From positions 1 to 36,020 of the forward strand of contig JAHQWP010000085.1 of the NCBI GenBank assembly GCA_029856235.1: DNA of 36,020 nt, written 5' to 3'. Source of the stretch: Promethearchaeia archaeon (GTDB lineage Archaea; Asgardarchaeota; Lokiarchaeia; Sigyniarchaeales; SOKP01). This document shows, one piece after another, positions 13,247-33,096 of the stretch. The translations under genes and the position numbers were made by a program. Numbering within the stretch: the first letter of the stretch is position 1; each line of letters begins with the position of its first letter. Under the pieces are notes generated by a model that was given only the letters and a program-made list of their open reading frames with translations, searched no databases and was not told the origin of the DNA.

Positions 13247-15559
13247 ATGGAAAATGAAGAAGTTTTGAAAGATGATGATATTAAAATTATCCACACAACT
13301 TCTGCTTTTGATTGTGGAGGGCGGTGTCCTTTAAGGTTTCATGTGAAGGATGGCAAAATCATCAGAGTAGAAGGTGATGACACGGCAGATCCCGATAACC
13401 AACTTAGAGCTTGCCTACGATGTCGATCAATAAGGGGTTATCTTTACCATCCAGAACGATTAAAATATCCTCTAAAAAGATCAGGACCAAAGGGTTCTGG
13501 TCAATTTGAAAGAATAACATGGGATGAAGCTCTTGATACAGTTGCCGCTAAGATTAAGGAAGTTAAGGAAAAATATGGAAATCAGAGTCTATTGGTTGTA
13601 GCTAATGGAGGATACTTTGGTTCTCTACATCTTCCTGCTGCAGCATATCAAAGATTATTTAATGCTTTAGGAGGGTTCTCAACAACATATGGAAATATAT
13701 CCTCGCAAGGAGCGATATATGGAACACAAGCGTCGTATGGTTTTGGCCAAATTTTTGTAGGAAATAGTAAAGAAGACTGGATGAATTCTAAATTGATAAT
13801 CCTCTGGGGTTTCGATCCTGCACGTATGATTGGGGGGACAAATACTCTATGGTGGTTAATTAAAGCAAAGGAAAATGGAGCAAAGGTAATAGCTATTGAT
13901 CCAAGATATACAGATACTGCTTTAACTGTAGCTGATCAATGGATTCCAATAATTCCTGGAACTGATGTCGCCATGATGGCCGCTGTGGCATACGTGATTT
14001 TAAAAGAAAATCTTCAGGATCAAGAATTTCTTGATAAATATACTCATGGATTTGGTAAATATAAAGCATATGTAATGGGTGAGGATGATGGTATCCCGAA
14101 AACACCAGAATGGGCTGAAAAGATATGTGGCGTAAAATCCTCCACAATTACAGAATTAGCTAGAGAATATGCTACAACAAAACCTGCCGCACTAGAAGAC
14201 GCTCAGGGTCCAGCAAGATCGTATATGGGTGGTCAATATAATCGCGCAGCAATTACATTATCTGCAATGACAGGAAACATAGGAAGACCTGGAGGAAGTG
14301 CTTGTGGTGGACTTCACGGAATTCCTTATGCACACATGTTTAGATCAATTGCGATTCCTCCTGGTGTGAATAAAGCATACCCAAAAGGGCCTTCTTTAAG
14401 AGGTAATATAAATCCAAGAGATCGCTTAGATAAAAAGGTGCATGTTAATAAAGTTTTTGATGCAATTCTCAAGGGTAAAGCTGGTGGATATCCTTTTGAT
14501 GCCAAATTTGCTATGTTTTTCCAATGTGATTTTCTAAATCAAATAGGAAATGCAAACCTTTCAAGGAAAGCTATGCAGAGAGAAGATTTGTTTACTGTAG
14601 TCCCTGAAATTTGGATGACTCCTACGGCCCAATATGCTGATATAGTACTTCCGGTCACAAGTTTTGCTGCTAGGAGTGATCTTACAAGACCATGGCCATC
14701 AGGTCCTTATTTTGGACACATGAATAAGGCAATTGAGCCACTTGGAGAGTGCAAGGATGATATAAGGATAGCTGAGGAACTGGCAAAACGATTGGGTATC
14801 GAAAACTTCGGATTAGATGCCGTACTTAATGAATTCATGAAAGCAACTAGCAAAAGTGTCCAGGAAGAAATACAACAATTAGATACTGTTGAAGAAAAAA
14901 TGTTACGTGTGTTTACAGCTCTTGCTCCGGATTTAAAACAATATATTGGAAAAGATTATCAAAAATATAAAACCGATGGTGTTTATAGAATCAAAGATGT
15001 AAAACCGTATGTAGCATTTAAAAAGAATATAGATGATTTTGAAAACAATCCTTGGCCAACTCCATCTGGAAAGATTGAAATTTTCTCAGACCAAATCGCC
15101 AGTTGGAACAACCCTATGGCTCCTGCTATTCCAAGTTATGTCCCTACATGGGAAAATCGTGATGATCCATTAGCAGAAAAGTACCCTCTCCAATTTTTAA
15201 GTTTTCATCCTCGACACTCAGTTCACTCTGAATTACAAAAAGTCGAATGGCTACAAGAAATTGGATTACAAAGACTATGGATAAACCCTGTTGATGCTGA
15301 GGAAAGAGGAGTTCGAGATGGAGACACTGTTCTAGTCTTCAATGACCGTGGAACAATTTCGGTTAATGCTTGGGTAACAAAACGAATTATCCCTGGAGTG
15401 GTTGCAATGCCAGAAGGAGCTTGGTTTAATCCTGATGAAGATGGAATTGATAGAGGAGGTTGTGCAAACACATTAACTAAAGACGCGATGAGTGAAGGAG
15501 GCGCTGCTGCATTGAAGACATGTCTAGTTCAAGTAAAAACTGAGAAGGAGTGTGCCTAA
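13247..15559 (+). CDS. DmsA-like molybdopterin oxidoreductase, catalytic subunit 1 (altered Fe-S motif)
   Basis: This is a 770-residue DMSO-reductase-family protein of DmsA type. The N-terminal Fe-S domain reads FDCGGRCPLRFHV with LRACLRCR. Then come RLKYPLKR, RITWDEALD, WGFDPARM, IDPRYTDTA, IPIIPGTDVAM and the C-terminal molybdopterin domain FNDRG with EGAWFNPDEDGIDRGGCAN. A Ser pair at 152-153 (YGNISSQG) occupies the usual Mo-ligand region. The first Cys of the expected C-x3-C-x3-C-x28-C motif is Ser19, leaving C23, C27 and C56, plus an extra C59 where relatives have Gly. There is no Tat signal, so it should be cytoplasmic. It overlaps the next gene, its electron-transfer partner. The ribosome site is GGTGAT. 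The substrate is unknown. Confidence 0.87.
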   Translation: MENEEVLKDDDIKIIHTTSAFDCGGRCPLRFHVKDGKIIRVEGDDTADPDNQLRACLRCRSIRGYLYHPERLKYPLKRSGPKGSGQFERITWDEALDTVAAKIKEVKEKYGNQSLLVVANGGYFGSLHLPAAAYQRLFNALGGFSTTYGNISSQGAIYGTQASYGFGQIFVGNSKEDWMNSKLIILWGFDPARMIGGTNTLWWLIKAKENGAKVIAIDPRYTDTALTVADQWIPIIPGTDVAMMAAVAYVILKENLQDQEFLDKYTHGFGKYKAYVMGEDDGIPKTPEWAEKICGVKSSTITELAREYATTKPAALEDAQGPARSYMGGQYNRAAITLSAMTGNIGRPGGSACGGLHGIPYAHMFRSIAIPPGVNKAYPKGPSLRGNINPRDRLDKKVHVNKVFDAILKGKAGGYPFDAKFAMFFQCDFLNQIGNANLSRKAMQREDLFTVVPEIWMTPTAQYADIVLPVTSFAARSDLTRPWPSGPYFGHMNKAIEPLGECKDDIRIAEELAKRLGIENFGLDAVLNEFMKATSKSVQEEIQQLDTVEEKMLRVFTALAPDLKQYIGKDYQKYKTDGVYRIKDVKPYVAFKKNIDDFENNPWPTPSGKIEIFSDQIASWNNPMAPAIPSYVPTWENRDDPLAEKYPLQFLSFHPRHSVHSELQKVEWLQEIGLQRLWINPVDAEERGVRDGDTVLVFNDRGTISVNAWVTKRIIPGVVAMPEGAWFNPDEDGIDRGGCANTLTKDAMSEGGAAALKTCLVQVKTEKECA

Positions 15560-17549
15560 AGTGCAAGTAGGATTTTATTTTGATCAATCACGATGTGCTG
15601 GGTGCCATGCTTGTAGAGTAGCATGTAAAGATTGGAACGATGTACCTGCAGGTCCTGCTTCATGGATGAGGGTTAAATACCATGAAGAAGGCCCATTTCC
15701 TAACATATTTGCTAGCTATTTAATTTCACCCTGCTATCATTGCGAAGAACCAGTATGTGCTTTCGTTTGCCCTAATGAAGCTATAACTAAACGAGAAAAT
15801 GATGGAATTGTAGTCATTGATCAAGAAAAATGTCGTGAAGAACATCATTGTGGTATTATTTCAAATTCAAAGACCCTATATGGAGAAGCACAAGCACCAT
15901 GTCAGATTGCTTGCCCAGTTCACCTTCATATACCCGCATATACAGCTTTGATTGCTAAGGGTAAATTTAAAGAGTCACTGGATTTAATCCGAAGAAGAAT
16001 GCCTTTACCATCAGTGTGTGGTCGAGTGTGTCTTCACCCTTGTGAAGATGTTTGTAAAAGACAAGAAGTAGATCAAGCAATCGCGATCGAAGCACTAAAA
16101 GGCTTTGTAACTGATCATGTTCCTCAAGAAATTCCCGATAAAATTCCTCAAACTCAACCTGACAAAGTAGCCATCATAGGTTCTGGTCCTTCGGGATTAT
16201 CTGCTGCTTACGATTTAATAAGATTAGGTTATGGAGTAACCATATTTGAGGCTTTACCTGTAGCTGGGGGTATGTTAACTGTTGGAATTCCTGAACATCG
16301 CTTACCACGTGAAATTCTTCAAAGGGATATTGATTATATAAAAGCTTTAGGGGTAGATATTAAAACTAATTCACCTATCGACTTAGAAAAGGGAGTAGAT
16401 GATCTTTTAAGCCAAGAATATGGAGCTGTTTTAATAGCGATTGGCGCTCATAAAGGAACAACTCTCAAAATTCCTGGTGTTGATTTAGAAGGAACACTTG
16501 TTGGGTCTTCATTCATGCGAAATGTCAACCTTGGAAAAGATGTAAAGATAGGCAGTAAAGTTATAGTGATCGGGGGTGGAAATGTTGCTATGGATTGTGC
16601 TCGTACTGCTCGACGATTAGGTGCTGCTGAAGTAGCGGTATCTTGTCTAGAATGCTGTGATGATATGCCTGCTTCAACCTCTGAAGTTGAACAAGCTCGA
16701 GAAGAAGGAATTCAAATTCATGATTCTCATACATTTACTCGTATTGAAGGCGATAACGGAAAAGTTTCTGGAGTAGGATGCCTAGACATCACAGAGTGTA
16801 CTTTTAATGAAGAAGGTCAACCTCAATTTGATATTGTTGACAGAAATGAACACATTTTAGAAGCTGATACCGTAATATTTGCAGTTGGACAAAAACCAGA
16901 TATATCGAATTCTAGTAAAATTAAAATCAATTCTAGTGGTACTATTGAAGCTGATAGAGAAACTCAATTGATCAATAAAGAGGGTGTATTTGTTGCTGGA
17001 GACTGTTTTAGTGGAGTAGCAAGCATCATAGATGCTATTGCCAGCGGGCAGAATGCAGCTTCGCATATGCACCGCTATTTACAAGGAGATGTACTTAGGA
17101 CAAGAGCGATCCCAATGAGCAAAGCAACTGAAATAGAAATCGATATCCCTTCAGATATTATTAAAACTGAACGTCAACCCATGCCAAATTTACCGGTAGC
17201 AGAAAGAATCTCTAATTTCAATGAAGTAACAATGGGTTACAGTGAAGAAGCAGCCATAGCTGAAGCTGAGCGATGCTTAAATTGTGCGGGACACTTATGT
17301 AAGGATGTTTGTCCGTATTCAGCTCCTCAGTTTGGTGGCGAAGAAAAAGCTAAAATGCAAAAATGTAATTTTTGTGTTGATAGACATGAACAAGGAAAAC
17401 AACCTGTATGCGTAGAATCTTGTTACGCTCGTGCCCTTGATTCAGGAACGTTAGAGGAATTGAAAGCAAAATATGGAGATATTCAAGAGACCTCAGGATT
17501 TGTATACTCTGAAAAACATAAACCCGCAATTATATTTAAACCTAAATAA
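15552..17549 (+). CDS. DmsB-like four-cluster ferredoxin with a GltD-like NAD(P)H/FAD oxidoreductase inserted
   Basis: This is a 665-residue nested fusion. Residues 1-101 are the first half of a DmsB: C15-x2-C18-x2-C21-x3-C25, C61-x2-C64-x4-C69-x3-C73, then C94-x5-C100. Residues about 112-578 are a full GltD-type module. It has the N-terminal Fe-S domain (C117, C121, C156, C160, C164, C168), an FAD fold (IGSGPSGLSAAYD at 209-221), an NAD(P) fold (VIGGGNVAMDCA at 339-350), and VAGDC at 481-485. Residues 581-665 resume DmsB with HLCKDVCPYSAPQF, C605-x2-C608, C620-x3-C624 and the usual DmsB tail. The enzyme could pass electrons between NAD(P)H and the DmsA-like subunit. The GTG start overlaps the end of that gene by 8 bases, behind AAGGAG; a GTG at 15561 is possible. 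Confidence 0.85.
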   Translation: MPKVQVGFYFDQSRCAGCHACRVACKDWNDVPAGPASWMRVKYHEEGPFPNIFASYLISPCYHCEEPVCAFVCPNEAITKRENDGIVVIDQEKCREEHHCGIISNSKTLYGEAQAPCQIACPVHLHIPAYTALIAKGKFKESLDLIRRRMPLPSVCGRVCLHPCEDVCKRQEVDQAIAIEALKGFVTDHVPQEIPDKIPQTQPDKVAIIGSGPSGLSAAYDLIRLGYGVTIFEALPVAGGMLTVGIPEHRLPREILQRDIDYIKALGVDIKTNSPIDLEKGVDDLLSQEYGAVLIAIGAHKGTTLKIPGVDLEGTLVGSSFMRNVNLGKDVKIGSKVIVIGGGNVAMDCARTARRLGAAEVAVSCLECCDDMPASTSEVEQAREEGIQIHDSHTFTRIEGDNGKVSGVGCLDITECTFNEEGQPQFDIVDRNEHILEADTVIFAVGQKPDISNSSKIKINSSGTIEADRETQLINKEGVFVAGDCFSGVASIIDAIASGQNAASHMHRYLQGDVLRTRAIPMSKATEIEIDIPSDIIKTERQPMPNLPVAERISNFNEVTMGYSEEAAIAEAERCLNCAGHLCKDVCPYSAPQFGGEEKAKMQKCNFCVDRHEQGKQPVCVESCYARALDSGTLEELKAKYGDIQETSGFVYSEKHKPAIIFKPK

Positions 17550-17677: not shown

Positions 17678-18826
17678 ATGACAGAAACAATGGATAAAGA
17701 AACATATAGGAAATATAAAAAAGCAGCTCAGATAATTAATGGAGCAGGTGGTACGCCTTTAACCATTGGTGATACTCTTATTAAAATTTTAAAACACATT
17801 TTACCTGATGAAGAGGCTCTCAGTTATATAAAATACTTTAAGTCTAAGACATCCCAAACCATATTACAATTAAAAGAAACTAGTGGTCTATCTGAAGAGG
17901 ATCTTCTATCTAACCTTATTAAATTGGCAAAAGTAGGATTGATTTTTAACCAACCTAATAGACACGGTGTTATTGTATACCGGTTAATGCCTTTCATTGA
18001 TGTTGGTGTTTTTGAATATACGTTTATGGGAGAATTAGAAGATAATATAGCAAACAGGGAATTAGCACGATTATATCACGAATTAACGAGTGGACTTCAG
18101 GACATATTAAAAAAAAATTACGAGGGAGTAGAAGCCTTTGTGAAAAGAAGGGCTCCAGTTGATAGAACTATACCGTACACAATCAATAAAGCTTCTGGAA
18201 ACGAAATCGAAATAGTAGTAGATACAATTCTAGATGTTCCTGAAGAGAAGATTTTACCAGTTCAAAAGGTAGAAGAACTTGTTGAAAAATTCGACGATAT
18301 CGCCGTTGGTCATTGCTTTTGTCGCCACCAACAGGATTTATTAGACAATCCCTGCAAACAAACAGATATTAGAGAAAATTGCTTTACTTTTGGAAAATCT
18401 GCGCGGTATACTTCAGAACAGGGGTTTACTAGATTGATCTCCAAGGAGGAAGCTTTAGAGATTATAAAGAAGTCAGATGAAGATGGATTAGTTCATAAAG
18501 CCTATCATCCCCATTTTGACACAGCTAAGGATGAAACTAGCTTATGCATCTGTTGTAATTGTTGTTGTGGCCAAGCTGGACCCTATTCCGTTAATGTTAA
18601 TTCAACCAAGTATAAAGCTCTAGTTAACCAAGAGGCTTGCACTGGGTGTGGGATATGCGTTGAAAATTGTCATACATTTGCGATGAAATTGAATGAGGAT
18701 AATGTGGCCGTAGTGGGAGAAAGATGCATTGGTTGTGGCGTTTGTGCATACATGTGTCCAGAACAAGCAATCTCTCTTGAAGAAAACGAGAGAATTGTCA
18801 GGCAAATGCCCCCTCGACCTGAATAA
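17678..18826 (+). CDS. Multi-cluster 4Fe-4S protein with winged-helix-like N-terminus
   Basis: This 382-residue protein has three parts. Residues 1-105 are helical, with a likely winged-helix fold (TILQLKETSGLSEEDLLSNL then GLIFNQ). Residues 206-300 carry an unusual Cys set: C213-x-C215, C226, C235, then C290-x-C292-C293-x-C295-C296-C297. Residues 318-370 hold two ferredoxin motifs (C321/C324/C327/C331 and C350/C353/C356/C360). The pattern HCFCRH, NCFTFGKSA, GF-R-IS-EEAL, CICCNCCCG is one I know from uncharacterised ferredoxins of anaerobes that accompany redox enzymes; I do not know a proven function. It lies 128 bases after the molybdoenzyme operon in the same direction and could be its electron carrier. 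It is probably cytoplasmic. The ATG follows a GGAAG-type ribosome site. Confidence 0.75.
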   Translation: MTETMDKETYRKYKKAAQIINGAGGTPLTIGDTLIKILKHILPDEEALSYIKYFKSKTSQTILQLKETSGLSEEDLLSNLIKLAKVGLIFNQPNRHGVIVYRLMPFIDVGVFEYTFMGELEDNIANRELARLYHELTSGLQDILKKNYEGVEAFVKRRAPVDRTIPYTINKASGNEIEIVVDTILDVPEEKILPVQKVEELVEKFDDIAVGHCFCRHQQDLLDNPCKQTDIRENCFTFGKSARYTSEQGFTRLISKEEALEIIKKSDEDGLVHKAYHPHFDTAKDETSLCICCNCCCGQAGPYSVNVNSTKYKALVNQEACTGCGICVENCHTFAMKLNEDNVAVVGERCIGCGVCAYMCPEQAISLEENERIVRQMPPRPE

Positions 18827-19824: not shown

Positions 19825-20412
19825 TTATTTCAATTCTGGATTGAGGAACTTATTTTCTTTTTTTGGTTTCAGAAGAATTGACGGTTTGATTTTATCATTG
19901 TTTAGAAATCCTTCAGCATCAACATTGTTTCCATATTTTTCCCGTAATTCTTCCATTGGACCGACATCGAGTGCGTACATTGGACACGCTTCTACACATA
20001 TTGGCTGTTGACCTTTCTCTAACCGGTCTAGACAAAGATCACATTTTTCCATTTTAGCGTTTAGTTCGTTACTGAATTGTGGAGAGTCCCAGGGACAAAC
20101 TTTTAGGCATTTAAATCCGCATTCATCTTTTCCAATGCATTTTTCACGATCGATTACCACTATTCCATCTTTCTCCCTTTTCGTTATAGCGTTTGTTGGG
20201 CAAGCCTTTACACAAGGGGGATCAACACAATGGTTGCATGAAATTGTTAAGTAAGCTAGAAAAATATTAGGAAATTTTCCTTTTTCGATTGATTTGACCC
20301 TTATCCAATTTACAGGTCCCGCAGGTATGTCGTGCCAATCCTTACAAGCAACAGAGCAAGTAAAACAACCAATACATCGTGACTGATCAAAATAGAAACC
20401 AATTTGATTCAA
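19825..20412 (-). CDS. DmsB-like four-cluster ferredoxin subunit
   Basis: This is a 195-residue electron-transfer subunit with four Cys motifs: CIGCFTCSVACKDWHD, CNHCVDPPCVKACPTNAIT, CIGKDECGFKCLKVCPWDSPQF, and CDLCLDRLEKGQQPICVEACP. It matches the DmsB/PhsB/NrfC class in length and order. It is close in sequence to the split ferredoxin halves of the 15552 gene and shows what that protein would look like without its insertion. The TTG start shares the bases TTGA with the TGA stop of the DmsA-like gene, so translation is probably coupled. There is no hydrophobic segment and no signal peptide. It should pass electrons between the DmsA-like subunit and a soluble partner. Confidence 0.88.
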   Translation of the reverse strand: MNQIGFYFDQSRCIGCFTCSVACKDWHDIPAGPVNWIRVKSIEKGKFPNIFLAYLTISCNHCVDPPCVKACPTNAITKREKDGIVVIDREKCIGKDECGFKCLKVCPWDSPQFSNELNAKMEKCDLCLDRLEKGQQPICVEACPMYALDVGPMEELREKYGNNVDAEGFLNNDKIKPSILLKPKKENKFLNPELK

Positions 20413-22721
20413 GAGTTTCCCGCCAATTGATTTTTTTGATACAATTTTACTTCTACTAACGCACTATTCATAGGAAATGCTCCTCCTGGAGAATATGCAT
20501 CTTTAGTTAAGACATTAGCACATCCACCCCTATCGACTCCATTTTCATCTGGATCGTACCAAGCTCCTTGATAAACGCATACTACTCCTGGGCTAATGCG
20601 GTCTGTAACTTTTGCAAAAATTCTTATTCTACCTCGATCGTTATAGATATCGATTAAATCTTCATTTCTAACGTTACGGATCGAAGCATCAATTGGATTA
20701 ATCCAAGCCGCGTGAGGTTCTATCTCTTCTAACCACGGAATTTTATTGAGAGACGAGTGAGTACGTCTTTTATTGTGAGGCGTGATTAATTGCAATGGGT
20801 ATTTTTTTGTTAAAGGAGAATCATAATGCTCTTCATGACTAAAGTACTTAGGAATCGCTGGCATTAGTGGAATGTTCTTTTCTGCTATGTGTTCGCAATA
20901 AATTTCAATTTTTCCAGATATCGTTGGAAAGGGATAATTTTCTGGATCTTCAATTTGGTTTTTAAAAGCGACAAAAGGCTCTTCCACTTTAACTTTGAAA
21001 TATCCATCTTTTTTCATTTTACCGTAGCTTTTTATATCTTTGCGAGGAGATGTAAATATTTGTAAAATTTGGTCCTCAGGCAGGTCTAGGAGACTGGATT
21101 TGATTCCTAGTTTTTTAGAAAGTTCTCGACATATTTCTAAATCAGATTTAGATTCATAAAGTGAATCGATCGCTTTGTTTAGGTAAATATAATAAGGAGA
21201 TCCAAGCCATGGAACTGCAATGTCGTTCCGTTCCATAAATGTGTTAGCTGGTAGGATGATATCCGCAAATTTTGCTGTGGGAGTCATAAATTGTTCATGA
21301 GTAACAATAAAGTCTAACGATTTTAAAGCTCTTATTCCTTTATTTACGTTACTGTATTGATTTAGACGATTTGTACCACATATATAAGCCATTTTTATAT
21401 CTGCGGGATAACCCCCTTTAGTTCCTTGCAAGATAAAATTGTAGTAATCGTTAAAATGTACTCGTGTGCTTGCTGGGTTTGTTCCACCTCGAAGTTTATA
21501 TAACGCTTCTTTACGAGGTGGAGCGTTAAAGTCAACAAGATTATCCTGAGGTCTTGGTTTTTTGGGTTTGTCTTTTTCATGAATTTGCTTAATCGGTCCT
21601 TCTTTCTTTTTTCCTACTGAACCACCACTCTCTCTGCTATAGTATGCCCTCATAAAACCAGAGGCATAACCTCCATTAATTCCAATGTTACCAGTAATTG
21701 CACATAAAACATTAGCTGCTCTCGAATATTGCTCACCAAATGTTGTTCTCGCAGGACCCCAACCCGCGATAAGGGCTGCTGGTTTACTTGTAGCGTACTC
21801 CCGAGCTAGTTTTGTTATAATTTTTTCTGGTACAGTAGTAATCTCTTCTGCCCAGCTAGGTGTTTTTGGTTGACCGTCTTCACGTCCAAGCACATATTCT
21901 TTGTAAAGATCAAATCCTACCGTATATTTATCAATAAATTGTTGGTCCTGAAGCTTTTCAGTTATTATAACATAAGCCATTGCTAGCAACATAGCTGTAT
22001 CAGTACCCGGGCGAATGGGAATCCATTCATCTGCTAATATTGCAGCTGTATCAGTAAAAATAGGGTCGATAGCTATTAATTTAGTTCCTTTTTCTCGAGC
22101 TTTAGCTAGCCATAAACTTGTTCCGGGATCCCAAACAGTATTGGCAGGATTCCAACCCCACATTATTATTAACTTAGAATTAAGTAAATCGTCGCGAGCA
22201 TTTCCCGTCATCATCGTGCCATATGTTGCCATTGAGGCAAAAAGAGCCCCTTCATATGAAGGTATTCCCCACATACGAGTATAACCCCCTATTTGGTTTA
22301 ACATTAAACCAACTGGTGTAACACCATGAAGCATTCCTTGATTTCCACCCCCCGGTACGAATAGAATTGCCGAGTTACCATATTTTCCTTTTATTTCTAA
22401 AATCTTAGATGCTACATGGCTTAAAGCATCTTCCCATGAGATCCTTTTGAATTTCCCTTCACCTCGTTCTCCAACGCGTAGTAGAGGGTATTTAAGTCTT
22501 TCCTCAGAATATACTCGTTGTCTATATGCTCTCCCTCTTGAACATGCCCTTAATTGTGGTTCCTTCTCATTATCTGTTTCAATTCGGGTAATCTTTCCAT
22601 TTTTTACGTGTGCCTTAAGGACACAGCGACCTCCACAATCGTGACAACATCCCGTATTTACTATTTTTTCAGTACTCTCATCCATATCTGCTTTGTCATT
22701 TATCATTTTGGATATGCTCAA
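20409..22721 (-). CDS. DmsA-like molybdopterin oxidoreductase, catalytic subunit 2
   Basis: This is a DMSO-reductase-family protein of up to 770 residues. Unlike the paralogue at 13247 it keeps the complete Fe-S motif: C25-x3-C29-x3-C33 and C60 (CCHDCGGRC, RACSRGR). Other landmarks are RLKYPLLR, RISWEDALS, IMWGWNPANT, IDPIFTDTAA, WIPIRPGTDTAML, TPTAKFADIILPA, and the C-terminal YNDRGRIRI with QGAWYDPDENGVDRGGCANVL. Ser155 (WGIPSYEGA) lies in the Mo-ligand region. The extreme N-terminus is not a Tat signal. The start is uncertain: TTG at 22721, ATG at 22706 or ATG at 22685. A TATATT/TATAAT stretch around 22728-22740 would place transcription start near 22710, favouring 22706. It is translated with the DmsB-like gene. 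The substrate is unknown. Confidence 0.87.
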   Translation of the reverse strand: MSISKMINDKADMDESTEKIVNTGCCHDCGGRCVLKAHVKNGKITRIETDNEKEPQLRACSRGRAYRQRVYSEERLKYPLLRVGERGEGKFKRISWEDALSHVASKILEIKGKYGNSAILFVPGGGNQGMLHGVTPVGLMLNQIGGYTRMWGIPSYEGALFASMATYGTMMTGNARDDLLNSKLIIMWGWNPANTVWDPGTSLWLAKAREKGTKLIAIDPIFTDTAAILADEWIPIRPGTDTAMLLAMAYVIITEKLQDQQFIDKYTVGFDLYKEYVLGREDGQPKTPSWAEEITTVPEKIITKLAREYATSKPAALIAGWGPARTTFGEQYSRAANVLCAITGNIGINGGYASGFMRAYYSRESGGSVGKKKEGPIKQIHEKDKPKKPRPQDNLVDFNAPPRKEALYKLRGGTNPASTRVHFNDYYNFILQGTKGGYPADIKMAYICGTNRLNQYSNVNKGIRALKSLDFIVTHEQFMTPTAKFADIILPANTFMERNDIAVPWLGSPYYIYLNKAIDSLYESKSDLEICRELSKKLGIKSSLLDLPEDQILQIFTSPRKDIKSYGKMKKDGYFKVKVEEPFVAFKNQIEDPENYPFPTISGKIEIYCEHIAEKNIPLMPAIPKYFSHEEHYDSPLTKKYPLQLITPHNKRRTHSSLNKIPWLEEIEPHAAWINPIDASIRNVRNEDLIDIYNDRGRIRIFAKVTDRISPGVVCVYQGAWYDPDENGVDRGGCANVLTKDAYSPGGAFPMNSALVEVKLYQKNQLAGNS

Positions 22722-25104: not shown

Positions 25105-25243
25105 CTAATTTTACCTATAACACGTTATTCTAAATATTTTATTGTGAAATATGTTTCAAGCGTTAAAAAAGCTTTATTAATATAATAAAATTAAATTAGT
25201 TCCAAAACTTTTGTTATTTAATAACTCGCTTAAAACCTATATA

Positions 25244-26209
25244 ATGACAGTATCTAAAGCCCTAGTTTTCCAGATTCAAAAGATGTCTACTGAAGACGGT
25301 CCTGGCATTAGAACAACTGTTTTTTTTAAGCAATGTCCGCTAAAATGTGTATGGTGCCACAATCCCGAATCTATTTCAAAAAAGAAGCAGTTAGAGTGGT
25401 TTAAGCATAAATGTATAGGTTGTAAAATATGCATTGAAACATGTCCAAAGGGAGCGTTAAATCTCGATGAGGATGGTATGCATATCGATAGGAACATCTG
25501 TGATAGTTGTGGTTTATGCTCAGATGAATGTCCTAGCACTGCTTTACACATGTTTGGGGAATTATGGAATTTAGAGGCTTTATATTACGAGGTTCAAAAA
25601 GATAAAATATATTACACCCAATCTCATGGTGGTATTACGGTTTCAGGTGGCGAGCCTACGCTCCAGTCTGACTTTATACTAAGTTTTTTGAGAAAGTGTA
25701 AAGATAACGAGATTTCAACTGCATTAGACACTTGTGGGTATGCTTCCAAGAGCATTTTTGAAAAGTTACTTCCTTATGTTGATTTAGTACTTCTTGATGT
25801 TAAGGAGATTAATTCTGAAAAACATGAAGAATACACAGGTGTTCCAAATACCCTCATCTTGGAAAATTCTATCTGGATTTCGGATTATGTAAAACAAAAC
25901 GGTAAAAAACTCTGGATTCGAACTCCAATTATCCCCCATTATACTGCGACGGAGGAAAATATCAAAGGAATCGGAGAATTTATCGTAAATAAATTACATA
26001 ATATTCCTGAAAGGTGGGATTTGCTTTCGTTCAATAATCTATGTGCCGCGAAATATGAACGATTGGACATGGAATGGTGCCTAAAAGACTTCCCTCTAAT
26101 TTCTACAGATAAAATGAACGAGTATATCGAGATTGGGAAAAGAACTGGTGTTACGAACGTTCAATGGTCTGGATTAACGAAAAGAGAAGATAGTAAAAAC
26201 AATTTTTAA
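25244..26209 (+). CDS. Glycyl-radical-enzyme activating protein (radical SAM)
   Basis: This is 321 residues from the ATG at 25244; upstream in-frame TTG starts are less likely. The radical SAM motif is C31-x3-C35-x2-C38 in KQCPLKCVWCHNPES, with the GRE-activase signature around DGPGIRTTVF. Two ferredoxin clusters are inserted: C57/C60/C63/C67 and C86/C89/C92/C96. SGGEP follows at about 134-138. This two-cluster layout is that of PflA-like activases of PFL2, glycerol/diol dehydratase, choline lyase and arylacetate-type glycyl radical enzymes. It would use SAM and reduced ferredoxin to create the glycyl radical on a partner enzyme, which is not in this window. It heads a four-gene operon (16-base gap to the next gene). 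The presence of oxygen-labile chemistry supports an anaerobe. Confidence 0.87.
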   Translation: MTVSKALVFQIQKMSTEDGPGIRTTVFFKQCPLKCVWCHNPESISKKKQLEWFKHKCIGCKICIETCPKGALNLDEDGMHIDRNICDSCGLCSDECPSTALHMFGELWNLEALYYEVQKDKIYYTQSHGGITVSGGEPTLQSDFILSFLRKCKDNEISTALDTCGYASKSIFEKLLPYVDLVLLDVKEINSEKHEEYTGVPNTLILENSIWISDYVKQNGKKLWIRTPIIPHYTATEENIKGIGEFIVNKLHNIPERWDLLSFNNLCAAKYERLDMEWCLKDFPLISTDKMNEYIEIGKRTGVTNVQWSGLTKREDSKNNF

Positions 26210-30993: not shown

Positions 30994-33096
30994 ATGGCAG
31001 TAGCGTTTTTATTAGTATCCTTAATCGCCGGGATTATATCTATTGGAATGGCGATGTATTTTAGACAATTAGTATTGAAAGAGGATCCTGGAAATGAAAA
31101 AATGGTTACAGTTGCCGGATATATTGAAGATGGTGCAAAAGCATACATCAAGGTACAATATATGGTTTTAGCTGGTTTTGTTGGAGCTTTATTTTTTATT
31201 ATACTCTTTGCATTACCTTCTCCGTTGGCACCTAGCGAACGATATGCTGTATTCTTTAATTGGGAACAAGCTGTAGCTTACCTGATCGGGTCCGTGGGAT
31301 CAATGCTCGCTGGATATCTAGGATTGTATGTTGGTGTGAAAGCAAATACTCGAGCAGCTCAAGCTTGTACTGTAGGCACCAAAGAAGGGTTCAATGTGGC
31401 ATTTTTTGGAGGCGCTGTAATGGGTTTGGCTGTTGTAGGTGTTGCCCTCATCGGAGTTTCAGTTTTGTATTGGGTGTTTGGAACGCCGTTAGTAGTTCTT
31501 GGTTTTAGTTTTGGAGCAAGCAGTATTGCCCTATTTATGAAATGTGGCGGTGGTATCTTCACAAAAACTGCAGATGTGGGCGCTGATCTAGTGGGAAAAG
31601 CAGAATACGATTTACCTGAAGACGATCCGAGAAATCCTGCAACAATAGCTGACAATGTGGGAGATAACGTAGGTGATATCGCTGGGATGGGTTCTGATTT
31701 GTTTGATTCATATGTAGCATCCATCGTCGCTGCAATGATGCTCGCAGCATCATTAGCGTTAATTACCGGCATAAATCCTGATTTAGATCCTGTATTACGA
31801 GCTACTCTTGTAGTTGCTCCCGTTGTTTTATGCGGAGTTGGGTTAATCGCTTCTCTTATTGGGATTTTTATCATCAAATATAGAAAAGCAGAAGATCCTG
31901 GAAAAGCCTTGAACAATGGAACGTATTATGCAACACTAATCTTTGCTGGAATTGCCGCTATTTTTACGTGGATTCTAACCCTTGATTTAGATCCTGATGG
32001 ATCTCTATTATTATGGCGGATTTATTTTGCTGTTTTAATTGGGCTTGCATCTGGTATTGTTATGGGCTTTACAAGCGACTACTTTACCCGTGATGATAAG
32101 GCACCAACTAGAAACATTGCAAACTCAGCAAAAGAGGGTCACGCTGTAGTCATTTTGAGTGGCTTTTCATATGGACTCCTCAGTGTAGTTCCTCCAACTC
32201 TAGGAATTATTGTAGCAATGGCAGTTTCCTATCTTCTTGCTGGAGTGTTTGGAGTAGCAATGGCAGCAGTAGGAATGTTGGCAATTGTTGGTACAATCGT
32301 ATCTAACGATGCTTATGGACCTATCGTTGATAATTCTCGTGCGATCGCCGAACAAGGCGAATTAGGAGACGATGTGATCCGAACTGCAGATCATTTAGAT
32401 TCCGCTGGAAATACAGCTAAAGCTATCACAAAAGGATTCGCAATTGGAGCCGCAAATTTGACTGTTTTTGCGTTATTATTCTCTTTTGCTGAAGAATCAG
32501 GGATTACAGCTGTAGATCTATTAAGAATAGAGGTGCTTATTGGAGCATTCGTTGGTGTTGTTGTACCCGCTCTTTTTTCAGCACTGTTGGTACTAGCAGT
32601 TCAAAGGAATGCTGCAAAAATGGTTGATGAGATACGAAGACAATTTGAAGAAAACCCAAAAATTCTAACTGGTGAAGAACCTGCTGATTTTAAGAGGACA
32701 ATTGATATAGCAACAAAAGGCTCATTACGAGAATTAATTTTGCCGAGTATAATCTCTATAACCGTTCCTATAGCTATTGGTATAATTTTTGGCGTAGCTT
32801 CCTTAGGGGCATTTCTTGCAGGAGCAATCTTATCGGGATTCGTATTTGCAGTGTTTATGAGCAATAGTGGCGGATCCTGGGACAACGCTAAGAAATGGAT
32901 TGAGGATGGCAACTTAGGAGGTAAAGGGACTGATGTACATAAAGCTTCAATTACGGGTGATACGGTGGGAGATCCTTTCAAGGACACTGCAGGTCCAAGC
33001 ATCAATACATTGTTAGTAGTAATGAGTTTAACAGCATCAATTTTTATGGGCTTATTATTGCTATTCAATGGGGGAATGGGATTAATAACATTCTAA
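30994..33096 (+). CDS. hppA: Membrane-bound proton-translocating pyrophosphatase, K+-independent type
   Basis: This 700-residue integral membrane protein has about 16 hydrophobic spans. The PPi/Mg site is present: DVGADLVGKAEYDLPEDD (starting about residue 193), DNVGDNVGDIAGMGSD, and the C-terminal GDTVGDPFKDTAGPS. The subtype-determining motif reads GNTAKA at 472-477. A Lys at that position marks the K+-independent class, which pumps protons, whereas K+-dependent enzymes have Ala. It couples pyrophosphate hydrolysis to ion export across the cytoplasmic membrane. The PPi comes partly from acyl-CoA synthetases, which fits the acyl-CoA theme of this locus. It is monocistronic, with a TATA box about 60 bases upstream. 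The length and both termini fit the family. Confidence 0.95.
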   Translation: MAVAFLLVSLIAGIISIGMAMYFRQLVLKEDPGNEKMVTVAGYIEDGAKAYIKVQYMVLAGFVGALFFIILFALPSPLAPSERYAVFFNWEQAVAYLIGSVGSMLAGYLGLYVGVKANTRAAQACTVGTKEGFNVAFFGGAVMGLAVVGVALIGVSVLYWVFGTPLVVLGFSFGASSIALFMKCGGGIFTKTADVGADLVGKAEYDLPEDDPRNPATIADNVGDNVGDIAGMGSDLFDSYVASIVAAMMLAASLALITGINPDLDPVLRATLVVAPVVLCGVGLIASLIGIFIIKYRKAEDPGKALNNGTYYATLIFAGIAAIFTWILTLDLDPDGSLLLWRIYFAVLIGLASGIVMGFTSDYFTRDDKAPTRNIANSAKEGHAVVILSGFSYGLLSVVPPTLGIIVAMAVSYLLAGVFGVAMAAVGMLAIVGTIVSNDAYGPIVDNSRAIAEQGELGDDVIRTADHLDSAGNTAKAITKGFAIGAANLTVFALLFSFAEESGITAVDLLRIEVLIGAFVGVVVPALFSALLVLAVQRNAAKMVDEIRRQFEENPKILTGEEPADFKRTIDIATKGSLRELILPSIISITVPIAIGIIFGVASLGAFLAGAILSGFVFAVFMSNSGGSWDNAKKWIEDGNLGGKGTDVHKASITGDTVGDPFKDTAGPSINTLLVVMSLTASIFMGLLLLFNGGMGLITF

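Follow-up and report, generated by a model that had tools for sequence, protein, structure and literature searches.

The window examined here, a 36,020-nucleotide stretch (contig JAHQWP010000085.1, assembly GCA_029856235.1) from a member of the Lokiarchaeia, encodes a MopB catalytic subunit followed directly by open reading frame (ORF) 15552-17549, in which a DmsB-like ferredoxin is interrupted by a GltD-like module. A conventional pair of the same kind, encoded on the opposite strand, served as a reference. The features are as follows.

13247 to 15559, + strand: MopB catalytic subunit, DmsA/YnfE-like, 770 aa (Pfam Molybdopterin and Molydop_binding)
15552 to 15854, + strand: DmsB-like N-terminal half, residues 1 to 101 (TIGR02951 at 5 to 101; 63% identity to DmsB 19825), holding motif I (C15, C18, C21, C25), motif II (C61, C64, C69, C73) and the start of motif III (C94, C100)
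15831 to 15851, + strand: start of motif III up to the split, C94-REEHH-C100
15855 to 15899, + strand: linker, residues 102 to 116 (from the alignment)
15900 to 17291, + strand: GltD-like module, residues 117 to 580 (Pfam, phmmer, AF2, Foldseek)
17274 to 17315, + strand: RC575-LN-C578-AGHL-C583-KDV-C587-P, the GltD RCxxC followed by the remainder of DmsB motif III
17298 to 17546, + strand: DmsB-like C-terminal half, residues 583 to 665, holding the remaining part of motif III together with motif IV (C605, C608, C620, C624)
19825 to 20412, - strand: conventional uninterrupted DmsB paralogue (reference), whose motif III reads CIGKDECGFKCLKVCP
20409 to 22721, - strand: DmsA-like protein paired with the conventional DmsB (reference), its identity to MopB 13247 being about 50%

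ORF 15552 begins with GTG, overlaps the end of the MopB gene by 8 bases and runs in an intact frame for 665 aa. When searched against its own genome, it matched the conventional DmsB 19825 in two pieces, at residues 5 to 102 (63% identity, E = 3.5e-40) and residues 580 to 665 (51% identity, E = 3.9e-25), and no match to that protein was found between residues 102 and 580. The C-terminal half was up to 61% identical to a Chloroflexota DmsB. The middle of the protein matched the profiles PRK12771 (residues 92 to 609, 452 bits) and PRK12814 (residues 110 to 585), together with the Pfam domains Fer4_20 (PF14691, residues 114 to 191) and Pyr_redox_2 (PF07992, residues 205 to 499), both above their gathering scores. 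The DmsB model TIGR02951 scored 146.3 bits, below its family cutoff of 214.1, as did the uninterrupted paralogue (188.6 bits); ORF 15552 likewise stayed below the curated cutoff of PRK12771 (516 bits), and a more distant nested protein of bacterial clade B, described below, passes it with 535 bits (L110). The two-piece DmsB match bracketing a full GltD match confirms the initial annotation: a DmsB-type ferredoxin, of the four-cluster kind, is interrupted within its third cysteine motif by a whole FAD/NAD(P)H module of the GltD type; the numbering it had given for the flanking cysteines (C94, C100, C583, and C587) was also correct.

The insertion point was located with a MAFFT alignment of ten uninterrupted DmsBs with nine Lokiarchaeal rows, two of which are second copies from genomes already represented. 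In the nearest conventional DmsBs, motif III is C-x5-C-x2/3-C-x3-CP in a single run. The order in ORF 15552 is C94-REEHH-C100, linker, GltD, C583-KDV-C587-P, and the insert therefore sits between the second and third cysteines of the motif. C583 and C587 align with motif III of DmsB, and the sequence that follows C587 (PYSAPQF) is clearly that of a DmsB. Depending on where it is counted from, the insert is about 466 residues long, when measured from C117 up to the residue ahead of C583, or 482, from C100 to C583, and the linker ahead of it is 4 residues shorter than in the closest relative and otherwise similar across the Lokiarchaeia. All 16 DmsB-type cysteines (C15, C18, C21, and C25; C61, C64, C69, and C73; C94, C100, C583, and C587; C605, C608, C620, and C624) are invariant in the Lokiarchaeal set, and those of the N-terminal half are invariant across the nested set and the conventional DmsBs. 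A distant bacterial clade has the same split, reading KC-NG-C before the insert and RCISC-GTC-CVQTCP after it.

The inserted module starts with C117-xxx-C121-P and ends with RC575-xx-C578, with an FAD Rossmann fold from residue 205 and an NAD(P)H Rossmann fold from residue 336. Its closest matches by phmmer were 9bov_A (E = 1.7e-105) and Sporomusa StnC, 8oh5_C (E = 5e-89), and AF2 modeled most of residues 200 to 510 with a pLDDT of about 80 to 97; a Foldseek comparison with 9bov_A (E = 5e-51) confirmed the kinship with GltD. The DmsB halves reached a pLDDT of only about 24 to 51 with either of two alignments, the second of which placed most DmsB rows in the right motif and gave no better values. 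Seven cysteines (C117, C121, C160, C164, C168, C575, and C578) and K183, all invariant in the Lokiarchaeal set, would form two putative [4Fe-4S] sites in the module. Homology to StnC and to pig dihydropyrimidine dehydrogenase assigns C160, C575, C578, and K183 to one predicted cluster and C117, C121, C164, and C168 to the other. K183 aligns with StnC K170, which has been reported to be a cluster ligand (PMC10482914). The residues Y-R-R of the NADPH site of StnC are replaced by C365-L-E in the clade of the window, which suggests a preference for NADH there; a clade of Thermodesulfobacteriota proteins (clade B) retains Y-R-R. Another Asgard family encodes GltD-like ORFs of 539 to 563 aa (L071 to L073, from G135, G134, and G136) that are 42 to 44% identical to the inserted module, carry a C-terminal ferredoxin and share the C-L-E signature. 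These are possible unfused relatives of the module.

Stand-alone GltD proteins offer a reason why such a site might tolerate so large an insert. In them RC-xx-C and C-xxx-CP are contiguous (RC-xx-C-x4-C-xxx-CP), as in the stand-alone GltD of the same genome (RCLQCENPLCVAGCP), and in the nested protein this motif is interrupted at a position that matches the break in DmsB motif III. The module's two ends would consequently be expected to meet in space, and both junctions would be motif hybrids. With the module ends side by side, the DmsB halves would be expected to fold together as in an ordinary DmsB, which would explain both how a module of more than 450 residues can occupy a cluster loop and why the site recurs.

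In NarH, the ligands of FS4 are C196, C217, and C223, and those of FS3 are C184, C187, C192, and C227 (PMC5338063). Mapping this ligand table on ORF 15552 gives a putative FS4 of C73, C94, C100, and C583 and a putative FS3 of C61, C64, C69, and C587, so that two clusters, not one, would straddle the insert. The initial annotation had assigned C94, C100, C583, and C587 to a single cluster; the NarH homology instead places C587 in FS3 and the other three in FS4. The phmmer match to NarH aligned residues 47 to 100 with 170 to 223, at equal lengths, and would place C94 on C217 and C100 on C223, whereas in the DmsB alignment C100 is the second cysteine of motif III. Judged by homology, both readings keep C94 and C100 in FS4. 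The remaining clusters would be FS2 (C25, C605, C608, and C620) and FS1 (C15, C18, C21, and C624).

The partner, MopB 13247, scored 639 bits against TIGR02166, below the cutoff of 777.7. Its S152 aligns with the Mo-ligand serine of DMSO/TMAO reductases (alignment to 7l5i/1eu1), making an oxotransferase reductase our first guess for its activity. No twin-arginine motif was seen on either MopB, the N terminus of 13247 included, and no membrane anchor gene was recognised near the nested gene. In those Lokiarchaeia loci for which flanking sequence was retrieved, the nested gene and the MopB gene are immediate neighbours.

Several further features of this neighbourhood were observed. Residues 17 to 60 of MopB 13247 hold an unusual FS0 motif (TSAFDCGGRC...RACLRCR), in which the first cysteine of the DmsA-type motif is a serine and an extra cysteine (C59) follows the last; it is kept in all Lokiarchaeal relatives whose N terminus was read and is absent from the paralogue 20409 (CCHDCGGRC...ACSRGR). 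In genome G008, the MopB (L082, 6667 to 8979) is 75% identical to the window MopB and 89% identical to that of another genus (G160), whereas most flanking genes are 88 to 97% identical to those of the window and the nested gene is 82% identical to that of the window and 76% to that of G160, suggesting that recombination replaced the MopB gene alone. The window ORF 17678-18826 encodes a 382-aa protein that has a 2x[4Fe-4S] ferredoxin at its C terminus and additional Cys-rich stretches. It was considered as a third subunit and rejected; the pair in the other genus lacks it, and it accompanies the pair only in the three loci of the window's genus, which places it outside the conserved unit. The window also encodes a glycyl-radical-enzyme activase (25211 to 26209; TIGR02494, 313 bits, above cutoff) and a membrane-bound H+-translocating pyrophosphatase (30994 to 33096; PF03030, 765 bits).

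The initial annotation had proposed a search for homologues as a check, and the same nested order was found in Lokiarchaeia, Thermodesulfobacteriota, and Chloroflexota; the arrangement is not special to the genome of the window. The full nested protein was present in 8 of the 228 Asgard genomes searched, from two genera of one family. The seven further Lokiarchaeia proteins are 74 to 86% identical to that of the window, and the records include MAGs from different studies. Single nested proteins were found in a Thermodesulfobacteriota genome (G316, 61% identity) and a Chloroflexota genome (G821, 54%), and clade B comprises ten Thermodesulfobacteriota proteins of 632 to 665 aa with the same nested order and 36 to 37% identity by blastp. 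The architecture therefore occurs in archaea and in two bacterial phyla. In every nested protein found, the break in motif III falls between Cys2 and Cys3, and a MopB gene is adjacent at every nested locus with flanking sequence read. These numbers come from samples searched at strict thresholds, comprising 395 genomes of Thermodesulfobacteriota, 350 of Chloroflexota, and 300 from the phylum to which G231 belongs, and the counts are lower bounds.

Four candidates were rejected. Three that appeared nested by match range (L035, L040, and L113) are NuoG-type [2Fe-2S]/ferredoxin proteins joined end-to-end to GltD, and a Methanosarcinales match (L041) has no DmsB part ahead of GltD. In another genome (G570; L103, 4876 to 11965), two MopB modules lie adjacent, the first pairing MopB with a nested-like protein and the second pairing MopB with an uninterrupted DmsB. 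In the nested-like protein, motif III runs directly into the GltD CxxxCP (KCGFPCSLECPAG); it looks like a third nested case, one without a linker, in a gene whose 3' part reads N.

That two unrelated ORFs had been joined by misassembly, or that the gene is a pseudogene, was a natural concern for a gene read from a single MAG contig. The same nested order in independent assemblies, at 74 to 86%, 61%, and 54% identity, rules out misassembly, and with an intact frame and conserved motifs this explanation retains virtually no probability. The number of origins is a closer question. DmsB parts of the Lokiarchaeal type, with that of G316, grouped in the tree among uninterrupted Chloroflexota and Lokiarchaeia DmsBs, and those of the Thermodesulfobacteriota type fell in a different clade, again together with uninterrupted sequences. 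A single nested clade was rejected for the DmsB part (AU p = 7e-5) and also for the GltD parts, which likewise separate (AU p = 0.015). With both trees rejecting a common origin, the module was probably inserted at least twice at the homologous place, and we regard this simplest reading as quite probable, our confidence being tempered by long branches and a small sample. One ancient insertion followed by precise losses would account for the insertion point shared by both clades, and only two clades were sampled, in trees with long branches; against it stand both AU tests and the MopB partners, which in clade B are Fdh-alpha/PhsA-like and about 29% identical to the window MopBs, themselves DmsA/YnfE-like and so of a different subfamily. 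We consider a single insertion unlikely. Separate origins at one site would in turn imply that the site is functionally favoured.

It could also be argued that no cluster spans the insert, C575, C578, C583, and C587 forming a complete motif for the DmsB part alone, with C94 and C100 as leftovers; the insert would then only separate motif II from motif III, much as in type III HdrA. The spacing C-xx-C-x4-C-xxx-CP is plausible for a four-cysteine motif, phmmer aligns residues 570 to 637 with the formate dehydrogenase beta chain 1kqf_B, and HdrA-type ORFs do have a complete motif after GltD. However, the RCxxC belongs to GltD itself, being conserved in GltD proteins that have no DmsB part (C575 and C578 in 8 of 8 non-nested GltD rows), and in HdrA-type ORFs it is followed by four more cysteines, whereas in ORF 15552 it is followed by two. 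C94 and C100, moreover, are retained in every Lokiarchaeal member and in both nested clades. We therefore think it improbable that C94 and C100 are leftovers. A different doubt concerns the direction of electron flow. The module might not be a donor to MopB at all, serving instead in a dehydrogenase that reduces NAD(P)+ or in flavin bifurcation among NAD(P)H, ferredoxin, and the Mo centre. The nearest solved relatives (9bov, 8oh5, and 9n5u) are large subunits of bifurcating transhydrogenases, the MopB partners of clade B are similar to Fdh-alpha/PhsA, and acyl-CoA genes occur among the clade B neighbours. Yet the StnC flavin, which is of the same type, does not bifurcate (PMC10482914), the subset of window ORFs tested against Pfam yielded no NuoF/HydB-like or NfnS-like subunit, and the window MopB has the Ser-ligand region of DMSO/TMAO reductases. 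Such a role seems unlikely for the enzyme of the window.

The observations support a model, which we consider likely, in which ORF 15552 is a CISM-type (DmsB-like) electron-transfer subunit with a GltD module at the loop of its distal cluster, FS4, linking it to NAD(P)H. Electrons would pass from NAD(P)H to FAD, to the GltD cluster of C160, C575, C578, and K183, to that of C117, C121, C164, and C168, and onward through FS4, FS3, FS2, and FS1 to FS0 and the Mo/W-bis-MGD centre of the adjacent MopB, the reverse direction also being considered. In NXR, FS4 adjoins the haem of the C subunit (PMC8387239). Since FS4 is the cluster that adjoins the quinol/haem subunit in conventional enzymes, the module would plug into the electron-entry end, taking the place of a membrane anchor of the DmsC/NarI type as the entry for quinol or haem electrons. 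The product would be a pyridine-nucleotide-linked molybdoenzyme, soluble and cytoplasmic, that in all likelihood works as a reductase and probably draws its electrons from NAD(P)H rather than from membrane quinols. Complex formation with MopB and the direction of electron flow are inferred from sequence, and on this reading the wiring of NAD(P)H to the neighbouring molybdoenzyme, already suggested at first inspection, is the likely sense of the fusion. We lean, somewhat less firmly, towards the broader view that two different molybdoenzyme wire subunits received GltD in the same FS4 loop, by at least two independent insertions, yielding soluble pyridine-nucleotide-linked enzymes in which ligands of FS4 and of FS3 lie about 480 residues apart.

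If true, this would be a clear case of modular rewiring, in which NAD(P)H of the cytoplasm takes over from membrane quinol at the electron-entry point, through a module inserted without loss of the cluster motif. Its recurrence in a second enzyme suggests a testable rule, insertion at the distal cluster of a module whose ends meet in space, that is perhaps useful for design. The metabolism of Lokiarchaeia, Thermodesulfobacteriota, and Chloroflexota also gains a candidate NAD(P)H-linked molybdoenzyme, one that automatic annotation would call no more than a generic NAD(P)-binding protein.

With DmsB and other CISM subunits (TIGR02951; NarH, FdnH) ORF 15552 has in common the four cysteine motifs, the 16 cysteines, and the MopB neighbour, but their motif III is contiguous where that of ORF 15552 is opened by a module of about 466 residues. 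With GltD-like proteins (PRK12771, PRK12814, Sporomusa StnC, and the large subunits of NfnABC) it shares the Rossmann folds, the two [4Fe-4S] sites, and the RCxxC at the C-terminal end. In StnC, GltD (residues 102 to 565) lies between domains, with a [2Fe-2S] domain ahead of it, and supplies a NuoG-type chain, whereas in ORF 15552 it lies inside a ferredoxin motif. AegA and YgfT combine a CISM-like ferredoxin with GltD in one chain, the ferredoxin being complete and ahead of GltD rather than nesting it, and the initial annotation had rightly cited AegA as an end-to-end fusion. It had also held that a nested fusion in this position was without known precedent. This stands for the position inside a motif, and in the open-access papers searched we found no description of DmsB-GltD nesting; it does not stand for insertion as such, which has been published for type III HdrA, where GltD is inserted within a ferredoxin and has been proposed to deliver electrons from NAD(P)H to the clusters (PMC12054007). 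The HdrA-type ORFs examined, however, have a complete first motif before GltD and a complete second motif after it, while ORF 15552 is split inside a motif; the HdrA host is not a molybdoenzyme subunit, while ORF 15552 is DmsB-like at both ends; and no HdrA model was among the 25 NCBIfam matches listed for ORF 15552. The in-motif position, the DmsB/molybdoenzyme host, and the recurrence thus appear undescribed in that literature, and the principle itself is one already known from HdrA, StnC, and AegA/YgfT.
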